Virus record (IMG/VR): IMGVR_UViG_3300025411_000047
Coordinates: 1 to 33,247 of that record
Strand: one strand, 5' to 3'
Length of the DNA: 33,247 bases
From: a virus
In this document: positions 1,600 to 31,004 of the stretch, in pieces
Layout of the letters: the number at the start of each line of letters is the position of its first letter
Position numbering within the stretch: position 1 is the first letter of the stretch
Position numbers and translations under genes: made by a program
The notes under the pieces: generated by a model
Databases searched by the model: none
Told to the model about the DNA's origin: nothing
Seen by the model: the letters and a program-made list of their open reading frames with translations, nothing else

Positions 1600-2881
1600 A
1601 ATCACACCAGAAATTCGCCAAGCTGTTAGTGCAGTTGATTTTCCAATCAAGCTACAGTTTCTATTCGAGCCATCACGCTTTAAAGTGGCCTATGGTGGGC
1701 GAGGGTCTGGAAAATCTTGGGGATATGCCAGGGCTTTGCTTGTAATAGGTGTTAAAAAAACAATTAGAGTTCTTTGTGCTCGTGAGTTTCAAAATTCTAT
1801 TGCTCAATCTGTTCATAGATTATTGGCAGACCAAATCATAGCTATGAAACTAGAGTCATTTTATGAAGTGACTCAAAACCAAATTAGAGGCAAAAATGGC
1901 ACAGAATTTAACTTTGTAGGCTTAAAAAACAATCCAGCAAATATAAAATCTTATGAGGGAAGCACTCACGTTTGGATAGAAGAAGCGCAAACCGTAAGTG
2001 ATCGAAGTCTTGAAATTCTTATTCCTACAATAAGAACGCCTGATTCAGAAATATGGATTACATTCAATCCTGAGCTAGAAACTGACCCTGTATATCAGCG
2101 ATATGTATTAAATCCACCTGATAACTGCAAAACAGTCAAAGTTAACTGGCAAGACAATCCTTGGTTTCCTGATGTTTTAAGACTTGAAAAAGATGCTCTT
2201 TTTAGTAGAGATAGGCAAGCTTACAACACAGTTTGGGAAGGTTTATGCCGTCAGACGGTAGATGGTGCTATCTTTGCTAAAGAAATGACAATGGCAGAAC
2301 TTGACGGAAGGTTAACAAATGTTCCATACGATCCAATTAAGCCTGTTCACGCTGTATTTGATTTGGGCTGGGCAGATGCTACTGCTATTTGGTTTGTTCA
2401 GTTTATTAGCCAGGAAGTCAGACTAATCCGTTACTACGAGAACACTCAGCAGACAATCGCTCATTATCTTGCTAAAATACAGTCCTATGGATACGTTATC
2501 GACACTTTGTGGCTACCTCATGATGCAGGGAATAAAACTCTATCTAGTAACGGTAGAAGCATCGAAGAAATCGTTAGAGCTGCGGGATACAATACTAGAG
2601 TCATTGAAAGAACCCCGATAGCAGACTCAATCAACGCTGCACGAATGATGTTCAATAAGTGCTGGTTTGATCGCAATAACACTCACGATGGTCTGCAATG
2701 CTTACGTCACTATCGCTATGACGTTGATCCTGACACTAAGCAGTTCAGCCAAAAGCCATTGCATGACAACTACAGCCACGGTGCAGATGCTTTCCGTTAC
2801 ATCGGCTTGATGGTGAACGAACCAAGAAAAGCACCTAAACAACCAAAAACTTATCAACTACCTAGCTCATGGATGGGCTAA
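1592..2881 (+). CDS. terL: Terminase large subunit
   Basis: ATP-driven packaging motor with a nuclease that cuts concatemeric DNA. The start is GTG at 1592, overlapping the end of the small subunit; 429 aa is the usual size for PBSX/Terminase_3-type subunits. Visible motifs: Walker A GGRGSGKS at residues 35-42, Walker B VWIEEA at 127-132, and a coupling-like segment WITFNP near 155-160. The RNase H-like nuclease domain follows, with acidic residues in AVFDLGWADAT (Asp257), LPHDAGNK and the C-terminal HGADAFRY. All expected parts are present and the frame is intact. Docking to the portal encoded next is expected from the family. Confidence 0.95.
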   Translation: MSEITPEIRQAVSAVDFPIKLQFLFEPSRFKVAYGGRGSGKSWGYARALLVIGVKKTIRVLCAREFQNSIAQSVHRLLADQIIAMKLESFYEVTQNQIRGKNGTEFNFVGLKNNPANIKSYEGSTHVWIEEAQTVSDRSLEILIPTIRTPDSEIWITFNPELETDPVYQRYVLNPPDNCKTVKVNWQDNPWFPDVLRLEKDALFSRDRQAYNTVWEGLCRQTVDGAIFAKEMTMAELDGRLTNVPYDPIKPVHAVFDLGWADATAIWFVQFISQEVRLIRYYENTQQTIAHYLAKIQSYGYVIDTLWLPHDAGNKTLSSNGRSIEEIVRAAGYNTRVIERTPIADSINAARMMFNKCWFDRNNTHDGLQCLRHYRYDVDPDTKQFSQKPLHDNYSHGADAFRYIGLMVNEPRKAPKQPKTYQLPSSWMG

Positions 2882-25181: not shown

Positions 25182-25279
25182 TTCTCTTGTTCCTTTTCTA
25201 AAGTTACTTTGAATGTAACAAACCAAAATCCTATATAAAAACACTTATCAACATATGCAATTCCTAATAGCTTACTCAT
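25178..25279 (-). CDS. Very small hydrophobic protein, 33 aa
   Basis: ATG 25279 overlaps the previous stop (ATGA), behind AAAGGCACAAGAGAA. The product MSKLLGIAYVDKCFYIGFWF then VTFKVTLEKEQEK has an aromatic-rich hydrophobic middle and a charged end. Its stop overlaps the next ATG in the same way. The regular coupling at both ends supports translation even though the gene is short. No known family. Confidence 0.55.
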   Translation of the reverse strand: MSKLLGIAYVDKCFYIGFWFVTFKVTLEKEQEK

Positions 25280-25638
25280 TTCTCTTGTGCCTTTCTTAGT
25301 ATTGCTCTAGCAAAATCAAATGCTTGTTGTCTAATCATTGCTGTCATTGCTCTTGCTATACTATCCCCATGGTCTGCGGTAGCTTCAATGGTTTGAAAGA
25401 ATTGCAACAACATAGTTTCTTTGCCAATTTGCTCTATTTCCTCATCTGTTAGTGTCTTTGCTGGATAACTAACATACTCACCAGCCATGTGACTAGCAGT
25501 TCTGTCAAAAGATTCGTCTGCTGGATGGGTGTAGAGTGGAATATCATCCCAGCTTTCTTTTTCATTGGTAACTATTGTGTCAGTAAAACCAAACTGCAAT
25601 TCATTTTTACCTATCCACGCTACTGGTTCATTGTTCAC
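25276..25638 (-). CDS. Hypothetical phage protein, EPVAW/YTHP type, 120 aa
   Basis: I chose GTG 25638 (product starting MNNEPVAWIGKNELQF), because AAAAGGC lies seven bases before it and related phage proteins begin with M(N/Q)xEPVAW as I recall. The middle reads WDDIPLYTHPADESFDRTAS, followed by LTDEEIEQIGKE and a C-terminal helix (MIRQQAFDFARAILRKAQEK). The YTHP motif and late LTDEEI are common in small phage early proteins of unknown function. It overlaps the genes on both sides. An upstream TTG (25671) is possible but less likely. Confidence 0.65.
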   Translation of the reverse strand: MNNEPVAWIGKNELQFGFTDTIVTNEKESWDDIPLYTHPADESFDRTASHMAGEYVSYPAKTLTDEEIEQIGKETMLLQFFQTIEATADHGDSIARAMTAMIRQQAFDFARAILRKAQEK

Positions 25639-26832: not shown

Positions 26833-27603
26833 CTATAGACCCGATTTTAACTGATAAAAACGCAAAAGGTGGAAAAAGCACTTCAAACCCTTTTGTAAGT
26901 CTGCTTCTTCTATTTCGCACAGCTTTACTTCGTTAGTTAGGCCATTGACAAACATAATCCCACATCTAGCACCCTCTAAGCCTAGCAACTCACGGTAAGC
27001 TGCCATCTGCATGATATGATCATCGTATGGAACGACCTTTTCCAAGGGGGTTTCTTTTGTCTTAAAATCTACAACCACGCCTGGTATGCCCTTAACTTTA
27101 TCTGCTTTGGCGTGTAAATCCACTTTGCCACCAAACTTTAGTTCTGTATGGCTAGCACTTTGCTCTGGAATCCATAATCTAGCCCCATACGCAGCTTGTA
27201 GGGCGTTTTCTATGTTACGGCAATAGGTAGGGATTGATTCAAGCAAAATACCGTCAAAGAAGCTCTCTATGATGGCGTGAATGGCACTACCACGTTCTGC
27301 TGCTTGCTTGCCTTGGGCTTTACTGTCGCTTAATACTCGACTAAGCCACTCGGATTCTTCTTCGCCTTCTAAGCGAGGTAATGTAAGCGCAGCGAGGATG
27401 GCCTGTTCTTGTTTCCATCGGTCAAGACCTGGCTTTGCTGCGACTCCCAAGATTGTTGTAACTGATGGCAATAAACCGAGTTTTTTAGCATCTCGTAAGG
27501 TTGTGTTCCTTTGTTTGCCATTCGCACCGATGATTTCGTAGGCTGGATTGCCCATTTCGTCATACCAATGCCCACTTTCACTTGTCTGATCCTTTATTAG
27601 CAC
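26833..27603 (-). CDS. RecB/Cas4-like PD-(D/E)XK exonuclease, 256 aa
   Basis: Likely resects DNA ends for phage recombination. The N-terminal SVTTILGVAAKPGLDRWKQE and GSAIHAIIESFFDG (residues 105-118) are typical of phage RecB-family nucleases. The active site is KFGGKVDLHAKADK with Asp162, followed by GVVVDFKTKE with Asp179 and Lys181, then HIMQMAAYRELLG, the QxxxY motif of this family. All expected residues are present. The start is GTG 27603 after GGGAAG. It lies in one operon with SSB-like and ERF annealing proteins, a standard phage recombination set. Confidence 0.85.
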   Translation of the reverse strand: MLIKDQTSESGHWYDEMGNPAYEIIGANGKQRNTTLRDAKKLGLLPSVTTILGVAAKPGLDRWKQEQAILAALTLPRLEGEEESEWLSRVLSDSKAQGKQAAERGSAIHAIIESFFDGILLESIPTYCRNIENALQAAYGARLWIPEQSASHTELKFGGKVDLHAKADKVKGIPGVVVDFKTKETPLEKVVPYDDHIMQMAAYRELLGLEGARCGIMFVNGLTNEVKLCEIEEADLQKGLKCFFHLLRFYQLKSGL

Positions 27604-28031: not shown

Positions 28032-28289
28032 TTAGAACGGAACGTCATCTACAAATGGGTCTTTCTTGGGTAACTCGTCAGACCCTGCTTCTTTAAATCC
28101 TTGTGGGATTTTTTCTTTGCCGATTGAAATACTGAAAAACTTGCCCTTTTTGCCTTCTTTAACCCAACCCGAAAGCCAATGCTCTTTACCATTAACCATA
28201 ATTGTCCCTGTGTAATCAGGATGGTTATCAGTCGTTTTACGGTCATTTTTAAATAAACTCCCTGAGCCTTCTTTTGGTGTATATGCCAT
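28032..28289 (-). CDS. SSB-like protein with acidic DDVPF tail, 85 aa
   Basis: Probable single-stranded DNA-binding accessory. The body is a small beta-rich unit ([50 protein letters not shown]) and the C-terminus is DPFVDDVPF. That tail matches the D-D-(I/V)-P-F tip with which bacterial SSB proteins recruit partner enzymes. The short length and lack of a full canonical SSB domain make this SSB-like rather than SSB. ATG 28289 follows AAAGGAAAGAAA. It lies between ERF and the exonuclease, as expected for a recombination set. Confidence 0.65.
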
Positions 28290-28299
28290 TTTCTTTCCT

Positions 28300-28737
28300 T
28301 TATAAAATATCTTTGGCTATTGACTTCATTGCACTACTAGACTTGCTTTGCACGGCAGCATTTGCATCGTCATCGGCTTGAACTACACCGACAACTGCTG
28401 CAAGCGCATATCTACGCATATACGTCAGCGCAGAACCAGAGCCTTGTGCATCAGGCTTTGATACAGGTAAAGACATTTCTTGACCAATCCACTCACCAGA
28501 ACTGTGAGCTAAAATTGTTGTCATTGACATTGTGCCGTCAATATATTCGCCAGGAAACTGCATAACTGAGAGGCCGTTTGCAGCCAAAAGATCACGGCAA
28601 GCATCCCACACAGACTCCAAGTCAGCATACTTAGACTTGAAGAACGGATTTGCTGAATCTTTTTTTGCATGGCTCAATTTCCCCTGAACGATTGACAAAG
28701 CTGTTGCTAATTTAGCGATTGATTCTGATTGATTCAC
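28300..28737 (-). CDS. ERF-family single-strand annealing protein, 145 aa
   Basis: Anneals complementary single strands made by the exonuclease. The sequence follows the ERF pattern: [40 protein letters not shown] (the hallmark [11 protein letters not shown]), [19 protein letters not shown], and [19 protein letters not shown], followed by DDDANAA. It is shorter than P22 Erf (204 aa), lacking much of the C-terminal region. The start is GTG 28737 behind GGGGGAATAA, one base after the previous stop. It has no Met alternative nearby. Confidence 0.88.
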
Positions 28738-28902
28738 TTATTCCCCCAATTCAATAATTTCATTGTATTTTTTTTCAAGCTCGTATAAAGCATCTCGCAA
28801 AATATCAGCTTTTAAAATCCAACTCTGTGATTCAAAATCTTCTGTATATTTAATTTTGGTTTCATCACGGTCTAGCCAGCGCACACTAAAAGCATTGATC
28901 AT
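28738..28902 (-). CDS. Small hypothetical protein, 54 aa
   Basis: ATG 28902 overlaps the previous stop (ATGA) with AGGAG upstream. The product MINAFSVRWLDRDETKIKYT, DFESQSWILKADILRDALYE then LEKKYNEIIELGE is acidic, with a strand-rich start and a long C-terminal helix. Its stop is one base before the ERF start. Unknown family; the spacing shows it is part of the recombination operon. Confidence 0.6.
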   Translation of the reverse strand: MINAFSVRWLDRDETKIKYTEDFESQSWILKADILRDALYELEKKYNEIIELGE

Positions 28903-29093
28903 TTTGCACTCCTAAATACAACTGCAAAGTCATCAAACAATGGTGCTAATACAGAGCGTTTGTTGCGTGGCTTACCACAGGCATGACGAATGATGTCAAT
29001 TTGATCTTGTGTAGGCCATCCACACTCCATTGCATCTAATGCTTCTTCAAGTTGTTCTTCATGCTCTAACATCAGTTGGTGTAATTCACCCAT
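28899..29093 (-). CDS. First leftward early protein, 64 aa
   Basis: ATG 29093 follows GGGGGAACGAA. The product is acidic in its N-terminal half (MGELHQLMLEHEEQLEEALD, AMECGWPTQDQIDIIRHACG) and basic later (KPRNKRSV). It is the first gene after the leftward promoter at 29135-29162, so it would be among the earliest products. Its form, short with a helical start and a loop containing WPTQDQ, is not diagnostic. Function unknown. Confidence 0.65.
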   Translation of the reverse strand: MGELHQLMLEHEEQLEEALDAMECGWPTQDQIDIIRHACGKPRNKRSVLAPLFDDFAVVFRSAK

Positions 29094-29134
29094 TTCGTTC
29101 CCCCGAAAAATATAGCGAAATTGCTACACTATTG

Positions 29135-29162
29135 ATTGTAAGCATATTTACATAGGTGTCAA
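29135..29162 (-). promoter_or_regulatory. Leftward early promoter TTGACA-N16-TACAAT
   Basis: On the minus strand, a perfect -35 TTGACA (plus 29157-29162), 16-bp spacer and -10 TACAAT (plus 29135-29140). It faces the leftward recombination operon. The operator at 29137-29152 covers most of the -10 and most of the spacer, so repressor binding should block polymerase. Confidence 0.75.
29137..29152. promoter_or_regulatory. Operator 1, TGTAAGCATATTTACA
   Basis: A 16-bp inverted repeat (arms TGTAA and TTACA) inside the leftward promoter. It shares the outer TGTAA/TTACA bases and length with operator 2 at 29191, whose centre is 54 bp away, about five helical turns. Confidence 0.7.
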
Positions 29163-29169
29163 CAACTAT

Positions 29170-29198
29170 TTGCAAATTAACAACATAAGGTGTAAGAT
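29170..29198 (+). promoter_or_regulatory. Putative rightward promoter TTGCAA-N17-TAAGAT
   Basis: TTGCAA (29170-29175), 17-bp spacer, TAAGAT (29193-29198). Transcription would start about 29205-29206, at the A of the repressor ATG, making a leaderless message as for lambda cI. Each hexamer matches consensus at four of six positions, so this is weaker than the leftward promoter. Confidence 0.5.
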
Positions 29199-29206
29199 TG
29201 CTTACA
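29191..29206. promoter_or_regulatory. Operator 2, TGTAAGATTGCTTACA
   Basis: A 16-bp perfect palindrome apart from its four-base centre (arms TGTAAG and CTTACA). It covers the -10 of the rightward promoter and ends on the first base of the repressor start codon, so binding would give autorepression. Confidence 0.75.
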
Positions 29207-29439
29207 TGAAGCTAAAACTATCAGATTCAGCAATAATTGATTTGCTGGGGGGATCAACAAAAGTCGCTAAACTTGCAGGGGTTACGCCTAATGCTGTATC
29301 AATGTGGCGTAAAAACAACATTCCTTATGAAAAGTTTGTAATATTGGCTGCCACGCTTGAGCGTGAGTCAAAAGGATTAATAACACGCAAGGACATATTC
29401 CCACAGTCCTGGCACTTAATATGGCCTGAAATACAATGA
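29206..29439 (+). CDS. Cro/YdaS-like DNA-binding repressor, 77 aa
   Basis: Predicted helix-turn-helix protein that controls the divergent early promoters. The HTH spans residues about 8-38: IIDLLGGSTKVAKLAGVTPN then AVSMWRKNNIPYEKF, with the turn at LAGVTPN. The C-terminal SKGLITRKDIFPQSWHLIWP with EI is the (V/I)TR.D..P ... IWPE end seen in Cro/YdaS-type regulators. ATG 29206 is chosen because operator 2 and the predicted start point end there; an upstream TTG at 29170 would add 12 residues but no better ribosome site is seen. It lies directly before replication genes, the cro position in lambdoid order. Confidence 0.85.
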   Translation: MKLKLSDSAIIDLLGGSTKVAKLAGVTPNAVSMWRKNNIPYEKFVILAATLERESKGLITRKDIFPQSWHLIWPEIQ

Positions 29440-30164
29440 GAATAGTCTGTTGGTTTAGTTGCGGAGCTGCTAGTGCAGTTGCCACAAAAATAGCGATTGC
29501 TGAAAATGCTGGCAAATATCCTTTGGTTATAGCCTATACAGAAGTAAAAGAAGAACATTCTGATAACAAGCGATTTCTGGCTGATTGCGAAGAATGGTTT
29601 GGGCAAAAGATAGAAATACTTGGCAATGACAAGTATGAACGGTCAATTTACAAAGTATTTGAAAAAAACTTTATTCGCACCCCAAAAGGCGCACCATGCA
29701 CAAGAGAGCTAAAAAAGCGCATTAGACAGCGTTTTGAGCAGGTTACAGACCGTCAAGTGTTTGGATATACAGCAGAGGAACAAGCTCGCTTAGATCGCTT
29801 TATAGATGCCAACAATGATGTGGATATATGGACACCATTGATTGACAAAGGGTTGGGTAAAGAAGATTGTTTAGCTATGCTTAAAAACGCCAATATTGAG
29901 TTACCAGCTATGTATAAACTTGGTTATCACAATAATAATTGCATAGGTTGCGTAAAAGGTGGCATGGGTTATTGGAATAAAATCAAAGTTGACTTTCCAG
30001 AGCATTTTGATCGCATGGCAAAATTAGAGCGTTTTAAGAAGCAAACCGTGTTTAAGGATAGGTATCTTGACGAATTGAAACCTACAGATGGAAATTACCC
30101 TCAAGAACCTAACATTGAATGTAGTATCTTTTGTTATATTGCAGAACAAGATTTAAAGTATTAA
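29436..30164 (+). CDS. PAPS-reductase-like / adenine nucleotide alpha-hydrolase family protein, 242 aa
   Basis: The N-terminus VCWFSCGAASAVATKIAIAE is a variant PP-loop (S-C-G-A-A-S instead of S-G-G-x-x-S), which binds ATP or an adenylated sulfur compound. Then come KEEHSDNKRFLADCEEWFGQ, a Cys-containing GAPCTRELKKR and a C-terminal NCIGCVKGGMGYW. The Cys pairs could bind a metal or Fe-S cluster. These features fit phage members of the phosphoadenosine phosphosulfate reductase superfamily (which includes DndC). The real reaction in phages is unclear; nucleotide or DNA modification, or sulfur use, are possible. ATGA overlap couples it to the repressor. Confidence 0.78.
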   Translation: MRIVCWFSCGAASAVATKIAIAENAGKYPLVIAYTEVKEEHSDNKRFLADCEEWFGQKIEILGNDKYERSIYKVFEKNFIRTPKGAPCTRELKKRIRQRFEQVTDRQVFGYTAEEQARLDRFIDANNDVDIWTPLIDKGLGKEDCLAMLKNANIELPAMYKLGYHNNNCIGCVKGGMGYWNKIKVDFPEHFDRMAKLERFKKQTVFKDRYLDELKPTDGNYPQEPNIECSIFCYIAEQDLKY

Positions 30165-30171
30165 AATCTAT

Positions 30172-30238
30172 GGACAGGCTAGGGTCATTCCCGAAAAGTC
30201 GATTCGTTACCGACCTGCCAAGTCCACCTTTGTAACGG
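30172..30238 (+). ncRNA. Candidate H-type pseudoknot leader before the replication gene
   Basis: In the 93-bp gap before ATG 30258, GGAC/GTCC (30172-30175, 30222-30225), GGC/GCC (30177-30179, 30217-30219) and GGTC/GACC (30183-30186, 30212-30215) stack into one stem. CGTTAC in its loop (30205-30210) can pair with GTAACG downstream (30232-30237). A further GCTTT/AAAGC hairpin (30238-30242, 30248-30252) lies next to the start codon, which has no clear ribosome site. This could be a riboswitch-like or protein-binding translational control. I match it to no known class. Confidence 0.45.
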
Positions 30239-30257
30239 CTTTAAACGAAAGCGCATT

Positions 30258-31004
30258 ATGAATTTTTACCCATTCCATATTGGGGACTATGCTTCCCATA
30301 CGAGGCATTTAAGCATTATTGAAGATATAGCTTATCGCAGGCTTATTGATGCTTATTATCTTGCTGAAAAGCCTTTAAATGGCGAACCTGACTTAATTGC
30401 TAGAAGCATTGGTATGCGTGAATATGAAGAAGAAGTTGAATATGTTTTGACTTTGTTTTTTGATTGCACACCAGATGGGTATATAAATAAGCGAGCAGAC
30501 GAAGAAATAGCCAAATATCGTGCTAAAGCTGATTCTGCCAGAAATGCAAACAGAATCAAATCAGAAAAGATATTAGCTCTGAAATCAGAACCGAATCACA
30601 ACGTAACCAAGAACCAAGAACCATTAACCAATAACCATAGTGTTGAAGTCGCTAAAGCTCCCAAGGCTAAAAGATTAAATGTTGAACAGTTGCCTGAAGA
30701 ATGGCAAGTGTTCTGCAAGACAGAACGCCCTGATTTAAATCCACAAGCCATTTGGAATCAATTTAGAGATTATTGGATAGCTCAAGGTGGGCAAAAAGGT
30801 GCAAAATTAGATTGGTTTGCGACCTGGCGTAATTGGGTAAGAAACCAAAAAAGTGTAGTAAATTACACAACCGATAAACCAGTTCAAAAGTGGGATGCAA
30901 GCTTGGCTGGTGTAATGGCCAAAGGAAAAGAACTTGGAATCTTACCAATACAAGGCGAAACAGAAGGACAATACAGAGAGCGAGTCAAATCAGGATACGC
31001 ATAG
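30258..31004 (+). CDS. DUF1376 (YdaU-like) replication protein, 248 aa
   Basis: Probable replication initiation protein. Residues 1-90 are a DUF1376 domain: MNFYPFHIGDYASHTRHLSI, IAYRRLIDAYYLAEKPL and PDGYINKRADEEIAKY. A polar linker with repeated Asn/Gln (about 100-130) leads to a C-terminal region with EEWQVFCKTERPDLNPQAIW, YWIAQGGQKGAKLDWFATWR and NWVRNQ, a DNA-replication-type segment in such proteins. The place after a Cro-like gene matches lambdoid O-like replication genes. No helicase gene is present in the window, so a host helicase may be loaded. Translation may depend on the structured leader at 30172-30238. Confidence 0.8.
   Translation: MNFYPFHIGDYASHTRHLSIIEDIAYRRLIDAYYLAEKPLNGEPDLIARSIGMREYEEEVEYVLTLFFDCTPDGYINKRADEEIAKYRAKADSARNANRIKSEKILALKSEPNHNVTKNQEPLTNNHSVEVAKAPKAKRLNVEQLPEEWQVFCKTERPDLNPQAIWNQFRDYWIAQGGQKGAKLDWFATWRNWVRNQKSVVNYTTDKPVQKWDASLAGVMAKGKELGILPIQGETEGQYRERVKSGYA

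Follow-up and report, generated by a model that had tools for sequence, protein, structure and literature searches.

A candidate Cro-only early transcription switch with two operators and a predicted leaderless repressor message in P22-like podoviruses

In phage lambda, the cI message starts at the AUG, and a small Cro-type protein acts at OR and OL on the early promoters of both directions; CI is also present and the sites are six in number. In phage PY54, both the cro and the cI messages have been shown by RACE to be leaderless (PMC4488713). In this phage, which is temperate and possesses CI, Cro binds to one operator only, at a distance from its own promoter (PMC4488713). In prophage CP-933P the leaderless gene is that of PaaR2, the CI analogue, whereas the part of Cro falls to YdaS (PMC8630535). 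Both P22 and CP-933P have divergent promoters overlaid by inverted repeats and a CI-type repressor on the other side, namely, c2 and PaaR2. Virulent Streptococcus thermophilus phages keep cro-like genes in genomes devoid of an integrase (PMC5338259); their hosts are unrelated to those considered here, and they are the only useful case found in the literature on Cro-only lytic phages.

The locus described here resembles these systems in some features and differs from them in others. It lies in a window of 33,247 bases (the whole stretch of DNA analysed), an IMG/VR record of a bacterial virus known from metagenomes alone, whose structural genes (portal, scaffold, and ejection protein) are of the P22-like podovirus type. 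As in PY54, its cro-like message starts at the AUG, here by prediction, whereas here both promoters carry a candidate site. With P22 Cro (PF14549) and CP-933P YdaS it shares a family match over the cut-off, the best structure matches, and the overlap of divergent promoters and inverted repeats; unlike in those two phages, no CI-type repressor was found on the other side, and the gene predicted to be leaderless is the Cro-like one and not the CI analogue. The action proposed for its small Cro-type protein on both early directions is that of lambda, but no CI was found, the sites are two, and both early promoters fall within one short intergenic region. As with the virulent streptococcal phages, a Cro-like gene is kept and no integrase is seen. 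Each element of the switch has a precedent, and no description was found in the literature searched of a wide phage group that combines two operators and two early promoters with a leaderless Cro while lacking CI.

The intergenic region (29094-29205, 112 bp) separates a leftward ORF of 64 aa from a rightward ORF of 77 aa. The former (28899-29093, minus strand) is the first gene of the leftward operon, matches nothing in Pfam or PHROG, and occupies the place that CI holds in temperate relatives. In the same operon, also on the minus strand, are genes for an Erf-like single-strand annealing protein (28300-28737; Pfam and PHROG searches), a protein similar to single-strand DNA-binding proteins (SSB; 28032-28289, PHROG search), and a PD-(D/E)XK exonuclease-like protein (26833-27603; Pfam and PHROG searches). 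The rightward operon, on the plus strand, continues beyond the 77-aa gene (29206-29439) with a phosphoadenosine-phosphosulfate-reductase-like gene (29436-30164; PHROG search) and a DUF1376/primosomal-type replication gene (30258-31004; Pfam and PHROG searches). Relatives of the 77-aa protein are abundant in IMG/VR, where 46 loci were retrieved with the window protein as query and at least 546 by a profile search; about 100 related loci agree with the reading of the region as a Cro-only switch.

The 77-aa protein belongs to the P22_Cro/YdaS family of helix-turn-helix (HTH) repressors, with scores above the curated cut-offs for both P22_Cro (PF14549, 34.1 bits, cut-off 30.2) and YdaS_toxin (PF15943, 31.1 bits, cut-off 30), and it also matches PHROG transcriptional repressors. 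When a profile built from 26 relatives was run against the PDB, it matched P22 Cro at 7e-6. The AlphaFold model consists entirely of helices (pLDDT 78), and the top solved structures returned by Foldseek are Xfaso 1 Cro, YdaS, N15 Cro, and P22 Cro, all of them weak matches (E 0.02-0.3). Model, structure matches, and profile match together point to an all-helical Cro fold. A role as a toxin, suggested by the name of the YdaS_toxin family, was considered and rejected, as YdaS has been argued to be a Cro analogue (PMC8630535).

Two promoters are predicted in the intergenic region. The leftward one (29135-29162, minus strand) consists of TTGACA (29162-29157), a 16-nt spacer, and TACAAT (29140-29135); with 11 of 12 consensus matches it is the best of the region, it is kept in most relatives, and its transcript is predicted to start at 29127-29128. 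The rightward one (29170-29198, plus strand) has TTGCAA (29170-29175), a 17-nt spacer, and TAAGAT (29193-29198). It is weak by consensus (8 of 12 matches, under the threshold of the promoter scan), and its -10 element ends 7 nt ahead of the ATG at 29206, which is the predicted start of the transcript.

This arrangement is widely conserved. Among 35 distinct upstream regions, a TTGnnn -35 is located 16-18 nt ahead of a TAAGAT-type -10 in 33, and the distance from the end of the -10 to the ATG is 5-9 nt throughout (6 or 7 nt in 30). The layout is kept even where the proteins are just 48-62% identical, as in MW202674 (TTGCAA-17-TAAAAT-6-ATG, protein 53% identical) and MW202520 (TTGAGT-18-TAAGAT-6-ATG, 48%). 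Since an in-frame stop lies within 15 nt upstream of the ATG in 17 of the 35 regions, the choice of this start codon is supported. No conserved Shine-Dalgarno sequence precedes the cro-like genes across the relatives; its energy ranges from +0.7 to -4.1 kcal/mol in all of them but L111, compared with a median of -5.55 kcal/mol for the 38 other genes of the window. In L111 the layout is lost and a Shine-Dalgarno sequence is present instead. The conserved -35/-10/ATG geometry and the missing Shine-Dalgarno conservation argue for a message that is likely leaderless, as the sequence-only reading had predicted from the window. A message starting at the AUG would allow promoter, operator, and start codon to fit in 39 bp.

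The same reading had placed two 16-bp operators of the TGTAAG..TTACA type on the two promoters, one on the -10 of a consensus leftward promoter and the other on the -10 and start codon of the Cro/YdaS-like gene, and both placements hold. O1 (TGTAAGCATATTTACA, 29137-29152, minus strand) reads TGTAAG-CATA-TTTACA on the plus strand and spans four bases of the leftward -10 together with most of the spacer; its conserved half is TGTAAGCA. O2 (TGTAAGATTGCTTACA, 29191-29206, plus strand) reads TGTAAG-ATTG-CTTACA and covers the -10, the predicted start site, and, with its last base, the A of the ATG. The two putative operators are the sole zero-mismatch matches to TGTAAGNNNNNTTACA (TGTAAG-N5-TTACA) in the 33,247 bases. 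A third operator was not found, as the window holds no further exact site and looser matches are no more numerous than expected by chance. The presence of two matching sites on divergent promoters beside one repressor gene is thus a confirmed observation.

What did not hold among the relatives at large is the symmetry of the sites. In 31 sequences thinned to less than 97% identity, the left half of O2 (TGTAAGAT) is invariant at all 8 positions and the left half of O1 has a mean conservation of 94%, equal to that of the leftward -35. The right halves average 65% (O1) and 71% (O2), no better than the third codon positions of cro taken as baseline (71% conserved, 7 of 75 invariant), and many relatives are without a good palindrome. 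Because the right halves are poorly conserved, the conserved form of the candidate operators is asymmetric, with one strong and one loose half; symmetric palindromes of the TGTAAG..TTACA type appear only in the window and its close kin. As the conserved half-sites overlap the -10 elements, part of this conservation may pertain to the promoter and not to the operator.

The candidate sites are linked to the Cro-like protein by the way in which half-site and recognition helix change together, a link that is purely correlative. The helix NAVSMW or NAVSQW is associated with the half-site TGTAAG, and helices of the PAAVSQW type are associated in phages with TTAAG. In prophage and temperate homologues, PSVxxW or ASVSGW accompanies TTAGG-N4-CCTAA (e.g., GTTAGGAAATCCTAAC), and three sites of this type occur in Acinetobacter phage Ab1656-2. 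In these temperate homologues the corresponding intergenic region contains inverted repeats of 6-4-6 spacing, and this spacing is common to the clear operator cases. Rules relating helix to half-site in lambdoid Cro proteins have been described (Hall et al. 2005, as cited in PMC4488713). Chromosomal genes of Acetobacteraceae-type bacteria for related HTH proteins with the helix PAAVSQW were also noticed (L126, L127, L129, L130, and L132); several TTAAG/CTTAA words lie upstream of them, as in the TTAAG phages.

Of the two features of a lambda-type CI-Cro switch, a CI gene opposite cro and an integrase, neither was found. None of 33 window-type records contains integrase PF00589, serine recombinase PF00239 is absent from the window and its relatives, and an S24 CI repressor was seen in none of 15 window-type records. 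The same searches detected PF00589 in Ab1656-2 and an S24 repressor in both temperate phages tested. A CI-like gene lies opposite most of the prophage and temperate Cro homologues; of eight ORFs tested opposite the prophage homologues, six have an HTH over the cut-off and a seventh one below it, and five have S24. These data bear out the absence of an integrase and of a second repressor noted in the window, and they favor the suggestion that the switch may serve timing and not lysogeny.

From these elements, the early control region of these P22-like podoviruses would keep the Cro half of a lambdoid switch, with no detectable CI or integrase. Upon infection, host sigma-70 polymerase would fire leftward through the 64-aa gene and the Erf, SSB, and exonuclease genes and rightward through the genes for the Cro-like protein, replication, and a DNA methylase. 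The Cro-like protein, whose message most probably begins at the AUG at a predicted start site, would build up, bind O1 and O2, in each case through the one strong half-site, and block both promoters at their -10 elements. As a result, early transcription would stop and the repressor would limit its own synthesis, with timing as the likely purpose. We assign a probability of about 0.7 to this reading, namely, that a podovirus group in which CI and integrase are undetected times its early transcription with Cro alone. Such a remnant of a lambdoid switch, with one repressor and two sites in 112 bp, would be carried by a phage group that seemingly does not use lysogeny, and relatives of it are found on hundreds of metagenome contigs. 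Its compactness would allow a rebuild on a plasmid, and it could provide a direct test of the use of Cro alone in a lytic cycle, while the matched changes of helix and half-site offer a natural set for testing the specificity rules of Cro.

Other explanations can be weighed against this timer. The TGTAAG words might be nothing else than two -10 regions, with accidental palindromes and a Cro-like protein which binds elsewhere or to host DNA. Indeed, the TGTA of O1 lies within TACAAT, the TAAG of O2 within TAAGAT, and the right halves are not conserved. However, the TG ahead of TAAGAT and the AAGC past TACAAT are likewise strongly conserved, two inverted repeats that match each other as closely as O1 and O2 do were present in only 6 of 20,000 random regions (Markov-1, from the intergenic region), and in the temperate homologues, with their 6-4-6 repeats, the half-site follows the recognition helix. 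This explanation appears unlikely. It is about as hard to credit that the repressor message starts further upstream, with a leader lacking a Shine-Dalgarno sequence, and that the promoter adjacent to the ATG is unused; the modest consensus of TTGCAA-TAAGAT would suit such a start, but the conserved spacing of -35, -10, and ATG among the 35 upstream regions does not, and no other rightward promoter of at least 9 of 12 was found by the promoter scan in the intergenic region.

A full lambda-type lysogeny switch, with CI and integrase located outside the window or of an unrecognised type, must also be considered. Judging by synteny with L011, L022, and L024, about 1.8-2 kb are missing between the end and the start of the window, temperate homologues do have CI opposite cro, and in a distant relative, G017 (L051 and L056), a second HTH_3 ORF at 221-867 diverges from the Cro-like gene and is possibly a CI without an S24 match; because of this second HTH ORF, the limits of the CI-less group are provisional. 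Against this, the search for an integrase beyond the window gave a negative outcome in the relatives: neither PF00589 nor S24 CI occurs in the four complete ones, i.e., the circular GenBank records MW202674 and MW202520 and two genomes whose terminal repeats measure 127 and 123 bp (G019 and G021), and the stretch missing from the window contains, in L024, a phosphoesterase-like ORF and small ORFs with no integrase. Moreover, the place of CI is held by the 64-aa ORF, and bacterial genomes contain no relative detectable with the window protein and only relatives at 51% identity or less when scanned with the profile. A complete switch is therefore very improbable. Still more doubtful is a carrier state, non-integrated and with immunity, in which the leaderless Cro-like repressor would silence the genome in some cells by itself, with no CI.

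The leftward leader is predicted to be structured (MFE -13.8 kcal/mol, z -2.88). Hairpin 1 (29112-29127, minus strand), with which the leftward transcript is predicted to begin, has the stem TAGC/GCTA and the loop AATTTC; in hairpin 2 (29093-29108, minus strand), the loop contains or adjoins the Shine-Dalgarno GGGGGAA, and the 3′ arm includes the A of the start codon. The stems covary in relatives, both arms being replaced together, as ATAGC/GCTAT, ATGGC/GCCAT, CTAGC/GCTAG, ACCGA/TCGGT, and ACCAA/TTGGT for hairpin 1 and as TTTCG/CGAAA, TTACA/TGTAA, TCTAA/TTAGA, TTTAA/TTAAA, and TAGTT/AACTA (the last in L113/L114) for hairpin 2; no clear hairpin 2 is seen in L105 and L107. When arms were reshuffled among stems, the observed pairing was reached by 16 of 40,320 arrangements for hairpin 1 and by the native one alone of 120 for hairpin 2, and pair counts in the alignment concur. 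Hairpin 1 may act as a 5′-end stabiliser or a protein site, and hairpin 2 may be a way of presenting the ribosome site. A nut/boxB site was rejected, the hairpin core GCAATTTCGC being found once in the window with no rightward copy.

Some further elements were noticed. Between the reductase-like and DUF1376 genes, a non-coding element (30160-30256) is conserved where the flanking genes differ; it resembles int-alpA RNA (RF02996; E 3.6e-5) with 32.2 bits, below the cut-off of 35.8, and in relatives eight pairs are changed on both sides, including a pseudoknot that joins the P3 loop with the 3′ tail. L003 contains a match to int-alpA (2213-2279, minus strand) that does exceed the cut-off. At 25276-25466 lie two stretches of about 40 bp, several copies of which are present in related loci, L008 among others; they are probably paralogous small genes. 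Finally, a related phage has a tRNA gene among its early genes (L017, 2565-2637, minus strand).
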